Shown here piece after piece: positions 7,155 to 37,503 of a DNA stretch of 37,503 nucleotides. Location: positions 1-37,503 of the IMG/VR virus record IMGVR_UViG_3300028840_002630. The stretch is one strand, 5' to 3'. The position numbers and the translations under genes were made by a program. The notes beneath the pieces are model-generated. The model was not told where the DNA came from. It made no database searches and saw only the letters and a list, made by a program, of their open reading frames with translations. Numbering within the stretch: the first letter of the stretch is position 1; each line of letters opens with the position of its first letter. The DNA is from a virus.

Positions 7155-7192
7155 AGTTTGAAGTTTGAAGGGTGAAGTTTGAAGGGTGAAGG
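7155..7192. repeat. B-family heptamer repeat (TTTGAAG/GGTGAAG)
   Basis: Alternating 7-base units TTTGAAG and GGTGAAG fill the gap upstream of the 7151 start and run directly into the palindrome at 7193. The same B repeat plus palindrome arrangement recurs at 11333-11385. Confidence 0.85.
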
Positions 7193-7210
7193 CCATTTCG
7201 CGCGAAATGG
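7193..7210. promoter_or_regulatory. parS-like palindrome, copy 1
   Basis: CCATTTCGCGCGAAATGG is a perfect 18-bp palindrome containing the 14-bp core shared by six sites in the genome. It lies about 42 bases upstream of the 7151 start and just after the stop of the 37-residue membrane gene. Its core resembles chromosomal parS (TTTCACGTGAAA) with two substitutions. Proposed ligand: the ParB-family protein encoded at 14549-16235. Confidence 0.7.
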
Positions 7211-9682: not shown

Positions 9683-9732
9683 CCATGGATTGGGGGGCTG
9701 CCAAGGCGGGATTTTGGGCCAGGGAGGGAAGA

Positions 9733-9812
9733 GTGAGGGGTGAAGAGCGAAGGGTGAAGGCTCGACGCCCGAAGTGACCGCTCCAGCCGATTCCCGTCTC
9801 ACGACAATCAAT
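9733..9812 (+). repeat. B repeat plus orphan leader element L, plus orientation
   Basis: B-family GGTGAAG units (9733-9762) are followed by a sequence matching the conserved leader found before many genes (CTCGACGCCCGAAG, then CCGATTCCCGTC, then CACGACAATCAATAG). Here it is on the plus strand and leads to no recognisable gene. This shows that the leader can exist apart from a gene. Confidence 0.6.
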
Positions 9813-11332: not shown

Positions 11333-11367
11333 GTGAAGTTTGAAGGGTGAAGGGTGAGGGGTGAAGG
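11333..11367. repeat. B-family heptamer repeat
   Basis: TTTGAAG/GGTGAAG/GGTGAGG units lead directly into the palindrome at 11368, the same composite as at 7155-7210. Confidence 0.85.
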
Positions 11368-11385
11368 CCATTTCGCGCGAAATGG
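11368..11385. promoter_or_regulatory. parS-like palindrome, copy 2
   Basis: A second perfect 18-bp CCATTTCGCGCGAAATGG, 38 bases upstream of the 11330 start and followed by GATCGGGCGATGAGC, similar to the right flank of copy 1. It sits between B repeats and A repeats. Confidence 0.7.
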
Positions 11386-14548: not shown

Positions 14549-16235
14549 TCACTTCGGCCGCTTCACTTGCTTCAGTTCCTTGGGCATGTCGATCCCGGCG
14601 TCGATGTCCTCCGGCTTCGGGATCTTCGCCACGAACGCCGCGACCAGGTCGCTCTTCGTCCCGCCCGCCGGCAGCTCGACGCCGAGCGCCTTGCCCTGCG
14701 CGACGAGCTGGTCCTTGCTCTGCCGGTTCCAGTAGGCCTCGCTCAGCAGCGGCCCAGCCTGCTCCTCGAGCCAGGCATTCTCGACGTCGATCTCGCACCA
14801 CTCGGCGATCGCCCACACGTCGGCCGCCGGCACGATCCGCGACGGCCCCGCCTTGTCGTCGCAGAAGAACCGGGCGACGAACTCGGCCGCCGCCTCGTAC
14901 ACATCGAATGCGTCGTCTTGCTCGAGCACGGCGCCGCAGATCGCGTCGCGGCTGCCCATCCAGGTCGACGCCCTGATCTTCGCCCCTTGCGTCCTCAGGA
15001 TCCCGGCCAGGTACTCGGCGTACTGATGCTCCTGCTGCAGCCAGTGGACGCCGGCGACCAGCAGCAGCCGGACCAGGCCGTCCTCGACCGCCAGACAGCC
15101 GTCGCGAATCGACTTAGCGATCAGGTACCGCCGCCAGTCGGTCGACCAGTCGACCAGCCACTTGCGGTACTTGGCCGCCCGCTCCTTCGCCTTCCGCTTC
15201 TCCTCCTCCGCCACCTCTTTCTTGGCTTTTGTGCTGCTGGGCTTCTTCGCACTGCCCTTCTTCCCGTTCTCCTTCGCCTTGAGCAACTCGTCGATCTGCG
15301 TCTTCCGCAGCTTCTCCCACAGCTTCGCGTTGGTCGCCAGCCGCTCCGTCTCGCCGCAGTCGTCGGGCACCTCGATCACGCCCAGCGCCTCCTCCTGCTC
15401 TGGCGTCACCGCGAAGATCTCGACGGCTCGGCCGACGCGATGGTCCCACAGCGAATCGTCCATCGGCTTGGTGACTCGCTGGACCCACCAGTGGACGTTG
15501 TTGGCGAATTGCTGCGAGTCGGGCAACTCGCCGCGCTTCAACTCCCGCTCGATCCCCTTCTCGATCTCCTTCATCACGGCCGGATGCCCGGCGAACGGCA
15601 CCAGGCACCGCGCGTGCGTCGCCGGTATTTCGCGCGAAATGACTTTCTTGAGTATCCCATTGGGTAACTTCAACAGCCGCAGACGATTCGAGACTTGTCC
15701 CTGCGACAAGCCGAGTTGCCGGGCCAGCTCGGTCGGCCCGGCCGCGTCGCCCGAGTCGATCGCCGATTGCATCGCCCGGGCCTCTTCCACCGGCCCCAGC
15801 TCCTTGCGGTTCATCGCGGTCACCAACACCAGCGCCCGGCACTCGGCATCGGTGCGGTCCTGCACCTCCGCCCGGACCAGCGTGAGCTTGCCCTGCTGCT
15901 TCGCCAGCTTGCTCGCTCGCAACCGCCGCTCGCAACCGCCGCTCGCCGTCGATCAGCTCGAACCGCTTTCCGCGCGGCTTGCGTCTGACGATGATCGGCA
16001 CGGCCAGGCCGTTGTTGACGATCGAGTCGGCCAGTTCGCGGATCTCGTCGTCGGGGAACTCCGTCCGGGGCTGAAACGGCGACGGGTCGATCCGCTCCGG
16101 GTCGATCGCCGTCGCCTCGACCACCACGTTTTTGATTGCCGCGCGCGGGCTCTTCGCCGCGGCGGCCCCGTTCGTCGACGCCTTGCCCCTCCTCGTTCGC
16201 GCCGCCGGTCGTTTCGCTTTCGTTGCCGTAGCCAT
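14549..16235 (-). CDS. ParB-family CTP-switch-like DNA-binding protein, frameshifted
   Basis: From ATG 16235 the product has a basic N-terminus, then the ParB domain: IRELADSIVNNGLAVPIIV (about 65-84), ELIDGERRLRA (about 93-103, the CTP-contacting arginine motif), NRKELGPVEEARAM, then a helix-turn-helix LARQLGLSQGQVSNRL. After about residue 190 comes a long charged helical C-terminal region. The frame breaks at 15921-15946, where 13 bases are exactly duplicated in tandem; removing one copy restores a 557-residue protein reading GERRLRASKLAKQQ. This may be a real inactivating slip, an on/off switch or an assembly error. No ParA is seen. One parS-like palindrome lies inside the gene (15627). 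A conserved leader precedes the start. Confidence 0.8.
15627..15640. promoter_or_regulatory. parS-like palindrome, copy 3 (inside parB-like gene)
   Basis: ATTTCGCGCGAAAT occurs within the ParB-like coding region, where it encodes ISRE. parS sites inside or beside parB are common in known systems. Confidence 0.7.
15921..15946. repeat. 13-bp tandem duplication breaking the parB-like frame
   Basis: AACCGCCGCTCGC occurs twice in direct succession. The unit length is not a multiple of three, so the copy number decides whether the ParB-like protein is in frame. Confidence 0.9.
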
Positions 16236-16393
16236 GACTTCCGCCTTTTGGTTGTTGTGTGAACTGAATCGGTTTGAACGCCTGCTTCGAGCTTTGAGTC
16301 CTTGAGTCAAAGACTCATGGACTCACCGCTCACTTCGCGCGTCCCGTTTTCACCCTTCGCTCTTCACCCTTCGCTCTTCACCCTTCAAACTTC
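16236..16393 (-). repeat. Leader element L, A-type and B-family repeats
   Basis: Before ATG 16235: CACACAACAACCAAAAGG, CCGATTCAG and GCTCGAAGCAGG. Further up, A-type units (TTGAGTC, ACTCATG) and B-family TTCACCC/TTCGCTC units reach into the end of the next gene. Confidence 0.75.
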
Positions 16394-17364
16394 CTCCCCG
16401 GAGGGCTTCGCTGCTTCGCTCGCAAGCCGATGCCCACTCTGCCGAGGATCTCCGGCGGATACCGCCGGTTGCGTTGGATCATCCCGAAGAAGTACCGACC
16501 GGGGGTCGTCTTGATCGTGTCGTCCGTCTTGGCCTGTCGAACGCGATCGAGGCACTCGTCGAGCAGGTCCAACGACACGCCGTGGTCGACGTGCATGCTG
16601 GCGACCTTCCAGTAGAACTCCAGATTCGTATCCGGGTCCGCGACGACGGCCCTCATCCGCCGGACCAGCTCTTCCTTGCGTCGATGGCGCGCGGCCTGGT
16701 CGCCGGCCGCGTCGACGATCGCCCCAACCACCGTACCAATGGGCGCCGGTTCCATTGCGCCTTGGATGTCTTGGTTTGGTTGCCTTTGTTCTTGGGGTAG
16801 ATATTTCTTGTTTTCTTGTTCTTGTTCTTGTAGGGCGCAAGAAGGACCTTTCGGCGCCGTAAGGTCCGGACCTTTTGGTACCTCACCGGACGATCGAGGA
16901 CCTTTCGGCGCCGTAACGTCCGCCCTTTCGGCCGCCTCCTCTTCGCGCGGACCTTTCGGCGCCGTAAGGTCCGGACCTTTGCGCGCCGAAAGGTCCGCCT
17001 CTTCGGCCGGTGGCGACGGTTCGAGCGGCAGCGGGATCTGCGGGTCGGGCCGTGCTTCGCGCCGTCCGGGCAGCGGATGATAGACGTAGATGTGGTGCAC
17101 GCCGCGGCGATCGGTCTCAACGATCTCGATCAGGTCCGCCTCGCAGAGGTTCACCAGCCACTTCCGCGCGGCCCGCGTGTCCCGGCCGCAGGCCCGGGCC
17201 AGCTCCCCGGGCGAGATGATCACGTAGTCGGGTCGGCAGTCGGCAAGCATCCAGAGGTGGTGATAGGCCAGTTTGGTCGCTGCTCCAAGCTGTCCGTCCA
17301 TCATGAGCATCTTCAGCGGCGCCAGTGCTTCGTGCACGTTCACGTTTCCGGCCATCCTGGTCAC
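16378..17364 (-). CDS. Replication initiator with internal origin
   Basis: Residues 15-97 form a winged helix-turn-helix (LGAATKLAYHHLWMLA, SPGELARACGRDTRAARKWLVNLC), like phage replisome organisers. Residues 125-175 are a low-complexity linker repeating KGPDLTAPKGP because the DNA beneath carries iterons. A Gln/Asn-rich part follows over an AT-rich tract, then a C-terminal helical domain (about 230-310) that could recruit a host helicase or loader. This mirrors lambda O, where the origin lies in the initiator gene. Starts at GTG 17364 or ATG 17355 are both possible. The last residues KFEG-stop are encoded by a B-family repeat. No polymerase or primase is encoded, so replication must use the host machinery. 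Confidence 0.75.
   Translation of the reverse strand: MTRMAGNVNVHEALAPLKMLMMDGQLGAATKLAYHHLWMLADCRPDYVIISPGELARACGRDTRAARKWLVNLCEADLIEIVETDRRGVHHIYVYHPLPGRREARPDPQIPLPLEPSPPAEEADLSARKGPDLTAPKGPREEEAAERADVTAPKGPRSSGEVPKGPDLTAPKGPSCALQEQEQENKKYLPQEQRQPNQDIQGAMEPAPIGTVVGAIVDAAGDQAARHRRKEELVRRMRAVVADPDTNLEFYWKVASMHVDHGVSLDLLDECLDRVRQAKTDDTIKTTPGRYFFGMIQRNRRYPPEILGRVGIGLRAKQRSPPGRKFEG
16780..17000. other. Predicted origin of replication (iterons plus AT-rich tract)
   Basis: Four near-palindromic 24-bp iterons lie at 16844-16867, 16898-16921, 16949-16972 and 16973-16996. Each starts GGACCTT, has GCGCCG near the middle and ends GTCC (AAGGTCC in three, AACGTCC in the second). On one side is a T-rich, AT-rich tract (about 16785-16832, TTCTTGTTTTCTTGTTC) suited to unwinding. 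This arrangement inside an initiator gene is that of lambdoid origins. Confidence 0.7.
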
Positions 17365-17439
17365 GTCCTTTCCTCAGCGTCTCCGCGTCTCGGCGGTTGA
17401 ATCAAAACGTCGCCGCACTTTCGGTTCCGAAAGTAGCGC
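17365..17439. repeat. D-family repeat in short gap
   Basis: GCGTCTCCGCGTCTCGGCGG at about 17377-17396 is the D element. The rest of the 75-base gap has no other feature. Confidence 0.75.
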
Positions 17440-17790
17440 TCACCCCTCCCCGTTGGATCCGAACAACGCCTGGCCGGCCGCCGCCCGTTGCTGCAAGTCG
17501 GCCACCTTCGCCGGCGAGCCGGGCTCGGCGTCCGGGTCGGCCTCGTGGCCGTAGAAGTTGTTCTGAATGAGCGTCGACGGGGCCTTGCCCTCGCCGACCA
17601 GGTACTTGAAGAACAACTGGATCGCCGTTTTGTCGCCGGCCTTGGCCCGCGTGACGATCCCCTGGACCACCTCCTTGGCGTCCTGCTCGCTGACCCCGTC
17701 GTACATCGCCTGGCGCAGCTTGTTCGTCCAGCCGAGTACGTCCGAGGCCGTAGCGATCTGGCCGCCCCGCTTGCTTCCCTTCCTAGGCAC
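17440..17790 (-). CDS. Hypothetical protein, DUF5681-like
   Basis: The 116-residue product starts at GTG 17790 with AAAGGA about eight bases upstream and overlaps the upstream gene by eight bases. It begins MPRKGSKRGGQ and contains VVQGIVTRAKAGDKTAIQLFFKYLVGEG in pieces typical of the AKAGDxxAIxLLxxYLxG pattern of DUF5681-like phage and mobile-element proteins. The role is unknown; its position between a DNA-binding protein and the replication initiator suggests DNA metabolism or regulation. Confidence 0.65.
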   Translation of the reverse strand: MPRKGSKRGGQIATASDVLGWTNKLRQAMYDGVSEQDAKEVVQGIVTRAKAGDKTAIQLFFKYLVGEGKAPSTLIQNNFYGHEADPDAEPGSPAKVADLQQRAAAGQALFGSNGEG

Positions 17791-18496
17791 TTTGGGTATC
17801 CTTTCGATGTTGTGGCTCGACCCACAGCGGCAACGCGTAGAGCTGCACGCTTCGGCCGCGGCCCTTTCCTTTGACCATGCGTCCTAATGAAACCACCAGC
17901 CCTCGTTTGATCAGGTGCGCCAAATAAGAGCCCTCGGGGTCGTTGCTGACCAGGCTCTTGCGCGATCCCTTCCACGGCATGCCGATCGCATCGGCGATCT
18001 GCCGCCGCGTGGCCGGCCCGTGCGCGTGGAGGAAGTTGAGGATCTGCACCGCCCGCGGACGCAGGTCCTCCGGCCATCCCGCCGCCCGTGCCCGCTCGCG
18101 ATAGACCTTCACCCGCAACTGGGCGAGGCTCTCAAGCCCCGCCGCCCGGAGCTGCTCGGCCGTCTTCCGCGCGACCTTCGCCCGGCGATACTGGCTCAGC
18201 GCGTTGCTCGGCAGCCCCATCGCCCGCCGCCGTTCGCCGACCCATTCCCGCGAGCAGCCCCACTGGTTGGCGATCTCCGTGTCGGGCCACCCCAGCGCGT
18301 GCTTCTCGCGGATCAACCCGTCGAGCCTCTCGCGATCCTCGGCCGCGCTGCGCGATTCGCTCATCCCCAGCTCGGCCGCCTTCATGTAGACCGCTCGTGT
18401 CGACCGCCCGATCCGATTCGCGATCGCCGTCGCCGACAGCTTATGGTAGTGCCGACGGAGGACGAACAGTTCGGTTGTGGTCCACTTGCGTCCCAT
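17783..18496 (-). CDS. Multi-HTH DNA-binding protein
   Basis: The 237-residue product has three predicted DNA-binding parts: a GcrA/Myb-like N-terminus (WTTTELFVLRRHYHKLSA, IANRIGRSTRAVYMKA), a second HTH around residues 65-95 (WPDTEIANQWGCSREWVGERR) and a C-terminal winged helix (ILNFLHAHGPATRRQIADAIG, then a basic wing ending QLYALPLW). It is a good candidate for an early regulator or lysogeny repressor, since no classic CI-like repressor is visible. ATG 18496 follows A-family repeats directly and has no good SD. Confidence 0.75.
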   Translation of the reverse strand: MGRKWTTTELFVLRRHYHKLSATAIANRIGRSTRAVYMKAAELGMSESRSAAEDRERLDGLIREKHALGWPDTEIANQWGCSREWVGERRRAMGLPSNALSQYRRAKVARKTAEQLRAAGLESLAQLRVKVYRERARAAGWPEDLRPRAVQILNFLHAHGPATRRQIADAIGMPWKGSRKSLVSNDPEGSYLAHLIKRGLVVSLGRMVKGKGRGRSVQLYALPLWVEPQHRKDTQSA

Positions 18497-19852: not shown

Positions 19853-20249
19853 TATCACCCGGTCGAACAGACACAGAAAAACGCACGCGCCGCGGCGGCC
19901 CTTTCTTCCGCCGCGGGAAACAAGGAAGGTGCCGAGCAAGCAAGCGACTCCGTTGCTTGGAGGCGAATTTGGGGCGTCGTGCCCGAAGTGGAGACGTCCT
20001 GTCGACATCGGCACCAGAAAGCGGCGGAGCCGTCCGCCGCGCGAGACGATATAAAAACACCCGGTCGGGCGTTGAGCTTTGAGCAGTGAGCTTTGAGCGG
20101 TGAGCGGCCGAACTGATGGTTGGCCGCCGCTCGGCCGAAAAGCGCGCAGCAAGAAAAGGTCGGGAGGATCGAGGCTAGAGACTGCCGCACGCCGAAGCGT
20201 CTACCCCGCTGCAATCTCCAGCCTCCAGCCTCCGGACTCCAGCCTGTCG
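19853..20249. other. Structured gene-free region between integrase and early operon
   Basis: No credible gene is seen. It contains two further perfect hairpins, 19890-19916 (CCGCGGCGG/CCGCCGCGG, with TTTTT 12 bases on) and 20021-20040 (GCGGCGGA-GCCG-TCCGCCGC), an A-family array at 20070-20104, and an E-family heptamer run CTCCAGC at 20214-20249. A frame at 19808-20152 has unlikely composition and translates the hairpins. The region could be a non-coding RNA processed from the integrase transcript. Confidence 0.6.
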
Positions 20250-21314
20250 TCAGAACCCGGGCAGCGTCAACTGCGGGTCGTCGGCCGCGATCGCCGGCTG
20301 GGGGACCTTGTCGATCGCCTTGCGAACGACCTTGCGGTGCACGTAGTGCCTCCGCGTCACGTCGCGGCCGAGGTGCCCGAGCATCTTCTCGGCCGCCGCC
20401 GGGTCGTCTTCCCACAGCGTCGTGCCCAACAGCTTCCGCACGGCGTGGAAGCCGAACCGTCGCTCCGGCGGAATCTCGGTCTTGGCCAGGATTCGGCGAC
20501 GGTTCTCCTGCAGCCATGAGTGCCCATGCGGCCAGAAGAAGAGTCGCTTGTTGGCGGTCCGCACCGACTCGGCCGCCCGCAAGGCCGCCTCGTTCAGCGG
20601 GAACCGCTTGCCGTTGTTGCCCTTGATGATCCGTGCCGGCACGACCAGCTCGTCGCCCTGGATCATGCTCCACTCCAGCAGCAGGGTCGTCTCGATCCGC
20701 GTGCCGACGTTGTAGATCCAGATGATCAGCGCCCGCCACCAGAGCGCCGGCTCGACGCCGAGCTGCGGCACGGCCGCGTGCTTGCATGCTTCCAGCCAGG
20801 CGGAGATCTCGTCGAGCGTGAAGACGTTTTCGACCTCCTCCTCGCGCTTCGGCGGTCGCTCCAAATAGGGCACCGAGTCGAGCAGCTCGGCGGCCATCCG
20901 GCAGGCTCGTCGCTTCGGGCCGGCCAGGTCGATCACTCGCTGGAGATGCACACAGTGCTTGCGGACCGTGTTCGGCGAAATCGGCTCGCCGTCGCGCCCG
21001 TGCAACTTCGCCACGCGACAGACGAACTCGCTGCAAGCATTGCCGTCGATCGACGCGAGCGGCGGATCGCTGGTCAGCTTTTGCCAGTACCCCAGCGACT
21101 GCTGATACTGATCGAGCGTCCGCTGCTTGATCTGCCGGGGCCGCAATACGTTCGGCTCGACATAGGCCTCGTAGAACTCCCCGAGCGTCATCGTCGGCGA
21201 GAGTGTTTTGGTATCCCCAGGCGGATCGACGGTCGATGACGGCGCGGCGATCGGCGCCGGGTCGTCGCCGACGAACAATCGCAAGGCGGGCGGTGAGGTA
21301 GTAGCTGGTTCCAT
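20250..21314 (-). CDS. int: Tyrosine recombinase (phage integrase)
   Basis: The 354-residue product has a core-binding domain (about 43-150) and a catalytic domain with the expected residues: Arg206 in NVGTRIETTLLLEW, a lysine in KGNNGKRFPL, His290 and Arg293 in FHAVRKLLGTTLW, His314 in LGHLGRDVT and the nucleophile Tyr324 in RRHYVH. HAVRK replaces the more usual HDLRH but keeps the catalytic pair. It would integrate and excise the genome at attP, proposed at 24181-24291. The start at 21314 is the first after an in-frame stop. Upstream inverted repeats (21329-21345, 21356-21378) may control it. Confidence 0.93.
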   Translation of the reverse strand: MEPATTSPPALRLFVGDDPAPIAAPSSTVDPPGDTKTLSPTMTLGEFYEAYVEPNVLRPRQIKQRTLDQYQQSLGYWQKLTSDPPLASIDGNACSEFVCRVAKLHGRDGEPISPNTVRKHCVHLQRVIDLAGPKRRACRMAAELLDSVPYLERPPKREEEVENVFTLDEISAWLEACKHAAVPQLGVEPALWWRALIIWIYNVGTRIETTLLLEWSMIQGDELVVPARIIKGNNGKRFPLNEAALRAAESVRTANKRLFFWPHGHSWLQENRRRILAKTEIPPERRFGFHAVRKLLGTTLWEDDPAAAEKMLGHLGRDVTRRHYVHRKVVRKAIDKVPQPAIAADDPQLTLPGF

Positions 21315-31607: not shown

Positions 31608-31933
31608 TCGTCTTCCTTGCAGTCGATAATCAGTTCTTCGTTCCGCTCGCGCGGGTTGCGCGGCGGGCCGACGATGTGCAGCTCGCGGCTGCCGTACTTC
31701 AGTCGCATCCGGCTCGTGATCGTAAGGTCGGGCCGGTAGCGGATCCGCAGCCGGTGCGTGATCCGCGACGCAAGTTGCTCGGCGTCGACCGACTCGTCGC
31801 TCTTCAACGGGATCATTTCGGCCCAGACGGTGGCCAGGTCCTCCCAGACGCGGGTCACCTCGCCGCCGTGCGTGCTCTCGCGCGGCTGCTGGATCGTGAT
31901 CCGCTTGTCGAGTTTTCCGGAGTCGATGGGCAT
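31604..31933 (-). CDS. Head closure protein (SPP1 gp16/Phage_H_T_join-like)
   Basis: The 109-residue product MPIDSGKLDKRITIQQP has the expected order of strands: RVWEDLATVWAEMIPL, ITHRLRIRYRPDLTITSRMRL and ELHIVGPPRNPRERNEEL. This is the head-tail adaptor family. Palindrome copy 5 ends four bases before the ATG, in the ribosome-binding region. Confidence 0.87.
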   Translation of the reverse strand: MPIDSGKLDKRITIQQPRESTHGGEVTRVWEDLATVWAEMIPLKSDESVDAEQLASRITHRLRIRYRPDLTITSRMRLKYGSRELHIVGPPRNPRERNEELIIDCKEDE

Positions 31934-36703: not shown

Positions 36704-37503
36704 CTTCATCCTCGCTTGGTAAGGTTGGGTCGTCGGGATCATCGGAGACCGAACGCGGCTGCAACCAGCCGTCGCGGCCTTCGTCGTCTTCGGTCGGCAG
36801 GGTCGGATCGTCGGGGTCGTAGCCGCCGGCGTCGGCACACGTGTGACGGGTGACGAGGGCGGATAATTGGTCCATCACCCGCTCGCACCACTCAGAGGCG
36901 TCCCAGCCACTGACGCAATGCGCGATCACCACATATCGATTGACCCCGGGCTCCGGCCCCGGAAGCCTGCGGATCATGCGATTGCAGTGATTGCGAGCCA
37001 AGCCGTCGGCGAAACGCAGAAGAGCCTCGCGAAAGCGGGCCGATGGCTCGCCTGCCAGGTCGATCGAGCCGGCCTGGATCGCGGCCATCGTGCTCGCGTA
37101 GGCGTCGATTACGGGCTGCCAGGCATTGCGCAAATACGTTTCGTGTTTGTCGGCGAAGCTGGCGGCCCATGTATCGAACGCCTCATGGTTGGGCTCCGCT
37201 CGCTGCAGGTGTCTCTTCGCTGCGCCACAGACTGCATTCTCACCTCGTCGTAACGTCCGTCGTGCCGCGTCGCGGAAGAGGTGGCGATACTGCCGCTTGC
37301 ATACCGATCGCATTTGCTTCCATATCGCAACGTGGCGATCGTCCCGCTGGCTCGGTTCGTCGTCTCCTGCCTGGTCGTCGGTCGCGTCGTCGTCGACCTG
37401 GTCGTCAGCCGCCTGGTCGCCGTAGATGTCGTCGACGTGCTCGAGCGGGACCATGTTCAGCGGGACGAACCGGCGATCGCCCTCGGGGCCGATCGGGTTC
37501 ATG
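36666..37503 (-). CDS. Phage portal protein, C-terminal part (joins 1-1216)
   Basis: The frame runs in from the circle junction (NMNPIGPEGDRRFVPLNMVP, a typical portal stretch), then has an acidic linker (GDQAADDQVDDDATDDQ), a helical block (CKRQYRHLFRDAARRTL, WAASFADKHETYLRNAWQPV) and a distal acidic tail in which DPDDPTLPTEDDEG is followed by DPDDPTLPSEDEDE, an internal duplication. Portals of this class are often about 400-500 residues, so the extra roughly 230-residue C-terminal region is notable. It overlaps the prohead protease start by 38 bases. Confidence 0.88.
   Translation of the reverse strand, partial: MNPIGPEGDRRFVPLNMVPLEHVDDIYGDQAADDQVDDDATDDQAGDDEPSQRDDRHVAIWKQMRSVCKRQYRHLFRDAARRTLRRGENAVCGAAKRHLQRAEPNHEAFDTWAASFADKHETYLRNAWQPVIDAYASTMAAIQAGSIDLAGEPSARFREALLRFADGLARNHCNRMIRRLPGPEPGVNRYVVIAHCVSGWDASEWCERVMDQLSALVTRHTCADAGGYDPDDPTLPTEDDEGRDGWLQPRSVSDDPDDPTLPSEDEDEYDDDPGEAST
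37460..37503. repeat. Terminal overlap, right copy
   Basis: Identical to bases 1-44; it indicates circular closure of the assembly. Confidence 0.9.

Follow-up and report, generated by a model that had tools for sequence, protein, structure and literature searches.

The window, meaning the whole 37,503-nt stretch of DNA analysed here, holds a whole phage genome, complete and circularly closed. The first 44 bases (1-44) are repeated exactly as the last 44 (37460-37503), and a separate contig (L002) crosses the junction at 99.8-99.9% identity, so the DNA is a 37,459-bp circle or a circularly permuted genome. Genes for portal, terminase, HK97-type capsid, neck, tail chaperone and tape measure were recognised and, together with a tyrosine integrase, indicate a temperate siphovirus. 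The minus strand carries nearly all of the predicted genes. Relatives of the portal protein in cellular genomes were mostly from Firmicutes, at ~40% identity, and no relatives of the integrase were found in viral_contigs. TTCACCCTTCGCTC-type short tandem repeats, or their complement, were noted in intergenic stretches at 7170-7193, 9728-9780, 11345-11368 and 16349-16393. The features considered below were as follows.

14549-16310: ParB-like gene directly downstream of the initiator gene, with the ParB_N domain read in the 15114-16310 frame and HTH_ParB in the 14549-15922 frame
16378-17364, minus strand: initiator gene, 328 aa, start codon GTG at 17364 or ATG at 17355, matching phrog_270
16378-16740, minus strand: C-terminal all-helical domain (low-confidence model), predicted contact for helicase or loader
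about 16766-16835: A/T tract, predicted unwinding element, T-rich on the plus strand and A-rich on the coding strand
16844-16867: iteron 1, 24-bp dyad, 22/24 palindromic
16868-16882: half-iteron abutting iteron 1, 14/24 identity to iteron 4 against a mean of 6.6 (sd 2.3)
16898-16921: iteron 2, 24-bp dyad, 20/24 palindromic
16922-16936: possible degenerate half-iteron abutting iteron 2, weak, 11/24 against a background of 6.6 (sd 2.3)
16949-16972: iteron 3, 24-bp dyad, 22/24 palindromic
16973-16996: iteron 4, 24-bp dyad, 20/24 palindromic, directly abutting iteron 3
17086-17337, minus strand: N-terminal winged-helix domain, predicted to bind the iterons, helices H-H-H-H plus two short strands at low confidence
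17418-17433: palindrome CTTTCGG-TT-CCGAAAG (CTTTCGGTTCCGAAAG), between the initiator gene and the preceding gene, resembling the iteron core
20250-21314: tyrosine integrase

The initiator protein and its family

The best family match of the initiator was phrog_270, 'replication initiation protein' (E 4.7e-6, residues 22-147). The match was weak and confined to the N-terminal half, in the winged-helix region; the N-terminal 99 aa alone scored 9.2e-5. At loose cut-offs phrog_270 also found matches in cellular genomes. The O-like family phrog_391 gave a weaker hint (0.0083), phrog_277, the family that holds lambda O, left the initiator unmatched at 0.1, and a profile built from 25 O-like N-termini did not find it at E 10. 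The earlier note had described the protein as not like lambda O, and these searches agree. The initiator is O-like in layout, while its membership of the lambda O family is not demonstrable. Direct relatives were absent from viral_contigs and genome_contigs, and tblastn against phages at 1e-5 and at 10 returned no relatives, the one match (E 0.6) being unrelated.

The predicted structure, of low confidence, ran from the N-terminal winged helix through a long disordered linker to an all-helical C-terminus, and both the iterons and the A/T tract lie within the linker of the gene. The single-sequence model was poor (pLDDT 48.7), and the N-terminus modelled with a 10-row alignment reached 62.7. 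A fold search of the PDB with the predicted structure gave no match below E 0.06; as all matches were weak, they agree only with a generic winged helix. The C-terminal part matched nothing in Pfam above the cut-off and nothing in PHROGs. Among the proteins scanned, no helicase or loader gene was recognised. Unlike lambda O, which is followed by P, the initiator is followed by parB, which is neither a P-type loader nor a DnaB-type helicase gene.

The iteron array and the constraint on its DNA

Four 24-bp near-palindromic iterons in the middle of the gene had been reported, separated by 30, 27 and 0 bases, along with a T-rich tract and an encoded linker that repeats KGPDLTAPKGP. The iterons (20-22 of 24 positions palindromic) and their gaps were found exactly as claimed, and the protein carries two copies of the repeat plus the related ADVTAPKGP and ADLSARKGP. 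The iteron consensus, at up to 3 mismatches, occurred nowhere else in the window and gave 0 matches in 100 dinucleotide shuffles; searching viral_contigs for the pattern also returned nothing. In view of the half-copies after iteron 1 and perhaps iteron 2, the array is best taken as three double units of 48 bp, with starts at 16844, 16898 and 16949; the half-copy after iteron 2 is weak. These starts are 54 and 51 bp apart, a spacing that would correspond to about five turns of DNA. The leading dyads of these units agree with one another at 23-24 of 24 positions, and the 24 bp after each at only 10-14 of 24.

Such repeats might have been selected at the protein level, as a low-complexity linker, leaving the DNA repeat as a by-product or as the trace of a recent local duplication, and the linker does encode repeated KGP motifs. 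We therefore weighed this reading against codon shuffles in which the peptide was fixed and codons were sampled at the frequencies of this genome. Against the 4 near-palindromes observed, 3000 such draws averaged 0.005 and never exceeded 1, and 0 of the 100 synonymous shuffles of the array test described below matched the observed copy count. The repeats use codons that are rare in this genome (CTT 3%, CCT 6%, GGT 8%, AAA 13%) and retain them in every copy. Third-position GC was high at both ends of the gene (0.83 in the N-terminal part, 0.81 in the C-terminal part) and lower in between, at 0.56 in the iterons and 0.36 in the A/T tract. Because shuffles that fix the protein fail to reproduce the array, the DNA is constrained beyond the peptide, and the selective constraint sits on the DNA of the array. 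This agrees with the proposed direction of cause, in which the iterons shape the encoded linker. The contrast in identity between the two halves of the units is likewise not expected from plain recent duplication, and we consider a protein-level or duplication origin of the repeats extremely improbable.

The A/T tract and alternative roles for the palindromes

Inside the A/T tract, position 16774 opens the 60-bp window with the lowest duplex stability anywhere in the 37,459-bp circle (dG -74.1 versus a mean of -94.1, sd 5.2). The tract is also where T exceeds A most strongly over 70 nt in the genome. Genome-wide duplex stability and base bias thereby bore out the claim of a T-rich tract. The unstable tract adjoins the array on the C-terminal-coding side, as expected from lambda. 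The genome's next least stable 60-bp stretch lies around 19734. A turn of cumulative GC skew near 16.9 kb, which the earlier note had put forward as a check, did not appear: the raw minimum was at 31,648, and the detrended extremes were at 19,912 (the minimum) and 11,427. On the note's own terms a minimum elsewhere formally counts against the origin, but with nearly all predicted genes on one strand, GC skew is weak or uninformative here as a test of it.

Dimeric repressors bind dyads of the 24-bp size class, and the dyads could accordingly be read as repressor operators on an internal promoter, with no replication role. The palindrome at 17418-17433, upstream of the initiator gene, is similar to the iterons and would suit such operators. 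Against this, a search for the sigma-70 consensus found no promoter-like site within 16250-17900, and four copies beside the genome's least stable tract suit an origin better. We regard the operator reading as very improbable. The upstream palindrome itself may be an autoregulatory site of the initiator, a suggestion made weakly: its core was absent from 60 shuffles, and its PWM score of 1.6 was below the shuffle mean maximum of 6.5 and within chance. By the 3-mismatch rule, an iteron-like site within 300 bp upstream was found in 0 of 28 initiator genes, including that of this phage.

The neighbouring gene raises another alternative, in which the palindromes are centromere-like (parS) sites of the adjacent ParB-like protein, serve partition or silencing, and lie in a replication gene by chance. 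ParB sites are often palindromes near parB, which a full ParB could bind, and ParB_N and HTH_ParB domains are encoded next door, in two frames. The change of frame, near 15.9 kb, could reflect a broken gene, an error of assembly or programmed frameshifting. Among the proteins scanned there was no recognisable ParA, and the C-terminal part of ParB had no relatives in viral_contigs. The best NCBIfam match of the ParB-like protein was a nucleoid-occlusion model.

A different sequence fits this protein better. The perfect 14-bp palindrome ATTTCGCGCGAAAT occurs in six copies around the genome (7195, 11370, 15627, 24561, 31939 and 36045), one of them inside parB, and 100 Markov shuffles never contained more than 1 copy of any perfect 14-mer palindrome. 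ATTTCGCGCGAAAT is two mismatches from the Noc site. ParB and Noc sites are described as 16-bp palindromes (PMC11109969). The copies of ATTTCGCGCGAAAT are likely candidate sites of the phage's Noc/ParB-like protein, and judged on sequence ATTTCGCGCGAAAT appears a better candidate ParB site than the 24-bp dyads. With its six copies and its resemblance to a Noc/ParB site, this palindrome weakens the parS reading of the dyads. A ParB HTH above the cut-off was moreover present in only 1 of 21 other records (G078); the remaining 20 lacked it, yet many of their initiators carry arrays. Taken with the domains next door, this leaves a parS role for the dyads quite improbable.

Comparison with other initiators and a proposed lambda-type origin

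To compare the layout across initiators, an array was scored when at least 3 16-mers with up to 3 mismatches lay within 240 nt and this was reached by no more than 5 of 100 synonymous shuffles. The sample comprised 49 genes: the initiator studied, 25 O-like genes (L053, 13 from annotated or unannotated phage records and 11 from IMG/VR) and 23 phrog_270 matches. The last were L054 plus 22 stop-free loci out of 30; L164, L166, L167, L170, L180, L181 and L185 (internal stops) and L189 (same frame as L187) were dropped before the count. L161 and L162 are near-duplicates within this set, and because L178 resembles a LexA repressor and not an initiator, the 23 form a loose set. In a first set of 27 initiators with no span limit, TerL of the phage also gave 6 scattered copies and 1 of 40 shuffles equalled the initiator; the 240-nt limit was added after that set, so the rule is not fully blind.

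The initiator studied passed the rule, as did 19 of the 25 O-like initiators, including lambda O as the positive control; the arrays of these O-like genes lie at 0.32-0.59 of gene length. Six failed, among them P22 gene 18 and D3, which means that the rule misses some. Among the phrog_270 matches a local array was present in 10 of 23 and absent from 13. Other genes of the same phage passed in 2 of 32 cases (40 shuffles each), none as strongly as the initiator; this background rate comes from one GC-rich genome only and may not hold for A/T-rich genomes. The same array test found in lambda and in most O-like relatives the layout seen here, of winged helix, iterons, A/T tract and C-terminal domain in one gene, and the lambda-like arrangement suggested by the earlier note was supported.

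This arrangement is already well known. In lambdoid phages the origin lies in the middle of O and consists of iterons and an A/T-rich tract, with four iterons in lambda and six in Stx phages, where the extra ones add 13 residues to the protein (PMC7466680); for some mycobacteriophages an origin within repA has been suggested by analogy with lambda (PMC7157519). As in lambda, the phage studied has its iterons midway along the initiator gene with an A/T-rich tract after them in reading direction, and its iteron copies insert repeated residues into the linker. Unlike those of lambda, its dyads are 24 bp, nearly perfect and in two pairs abutting or nearly so, and the iteron spacing is 24/51/54, compared with about 20-24 in lambda.

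In family terms, the phrog_270 initiators, with an HTH_36-like winged helix, are the best family for this protein, although its match is weak and limited to the N-terminal half and its C-terminus matches nothing. Lambda O falls in phrog_277, did not match phrog_270 at E 1 and returned no match in a sequence search of the PDB; P22 gene 18 and L053 match both the phrog_270 and phrog_277 groups. L053 is a phrog_270-matching gene of record G006, a related phage that was reached in viral_contigs through its portal protein (34% identity), and it aligns directly by tblastn to lambda O and P22 gene 18. It shares with the gene studied four palindromic iteron copies (GTGTCATTTTTGACAC) at the same position in the linker, whereas its iteron sequence is unrelated, its genome is A/T-rich and no ParB HTH was found in G006.

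We conclude that the locus is very probably a lambda-type replication origin contained within the gene that encodes its own initiator. Initiator dimers would use their N-terminal winged helix to bind the 24-bp dyads and would wrap the array. The A/T tract, on the side that encodes the C-terminus, would then melt, and the C-terminal domain would recruit the replicative helicase of the host, either by itself or by way of a host loader. A fuller version can be imagined, in which the initiator belongs to a family separate from lambda O, the origin consists of three units of paired dyads spaced by about five turns of the helix, the initiator acts as its own repressor at the matching dyad 54 bp upstream of the start codon, and firing is tuned by the phage's Noc/ParB-like protein from a candidate site 1.2 kb away; as a whole this is speculative and rather unlikely.

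The prediction is clear and well supported, but the kind of origin is already known. What it offers is a precisely placed origin, open to testing, in an uncultured phage without close relatives in the collections searched. It also extends the origin-inside-initiator layout to a phage that is GC-rich and has an initiator not recognisable as lambda O. Other phage genomes could be screened for such origins with the synonymous-codon test.
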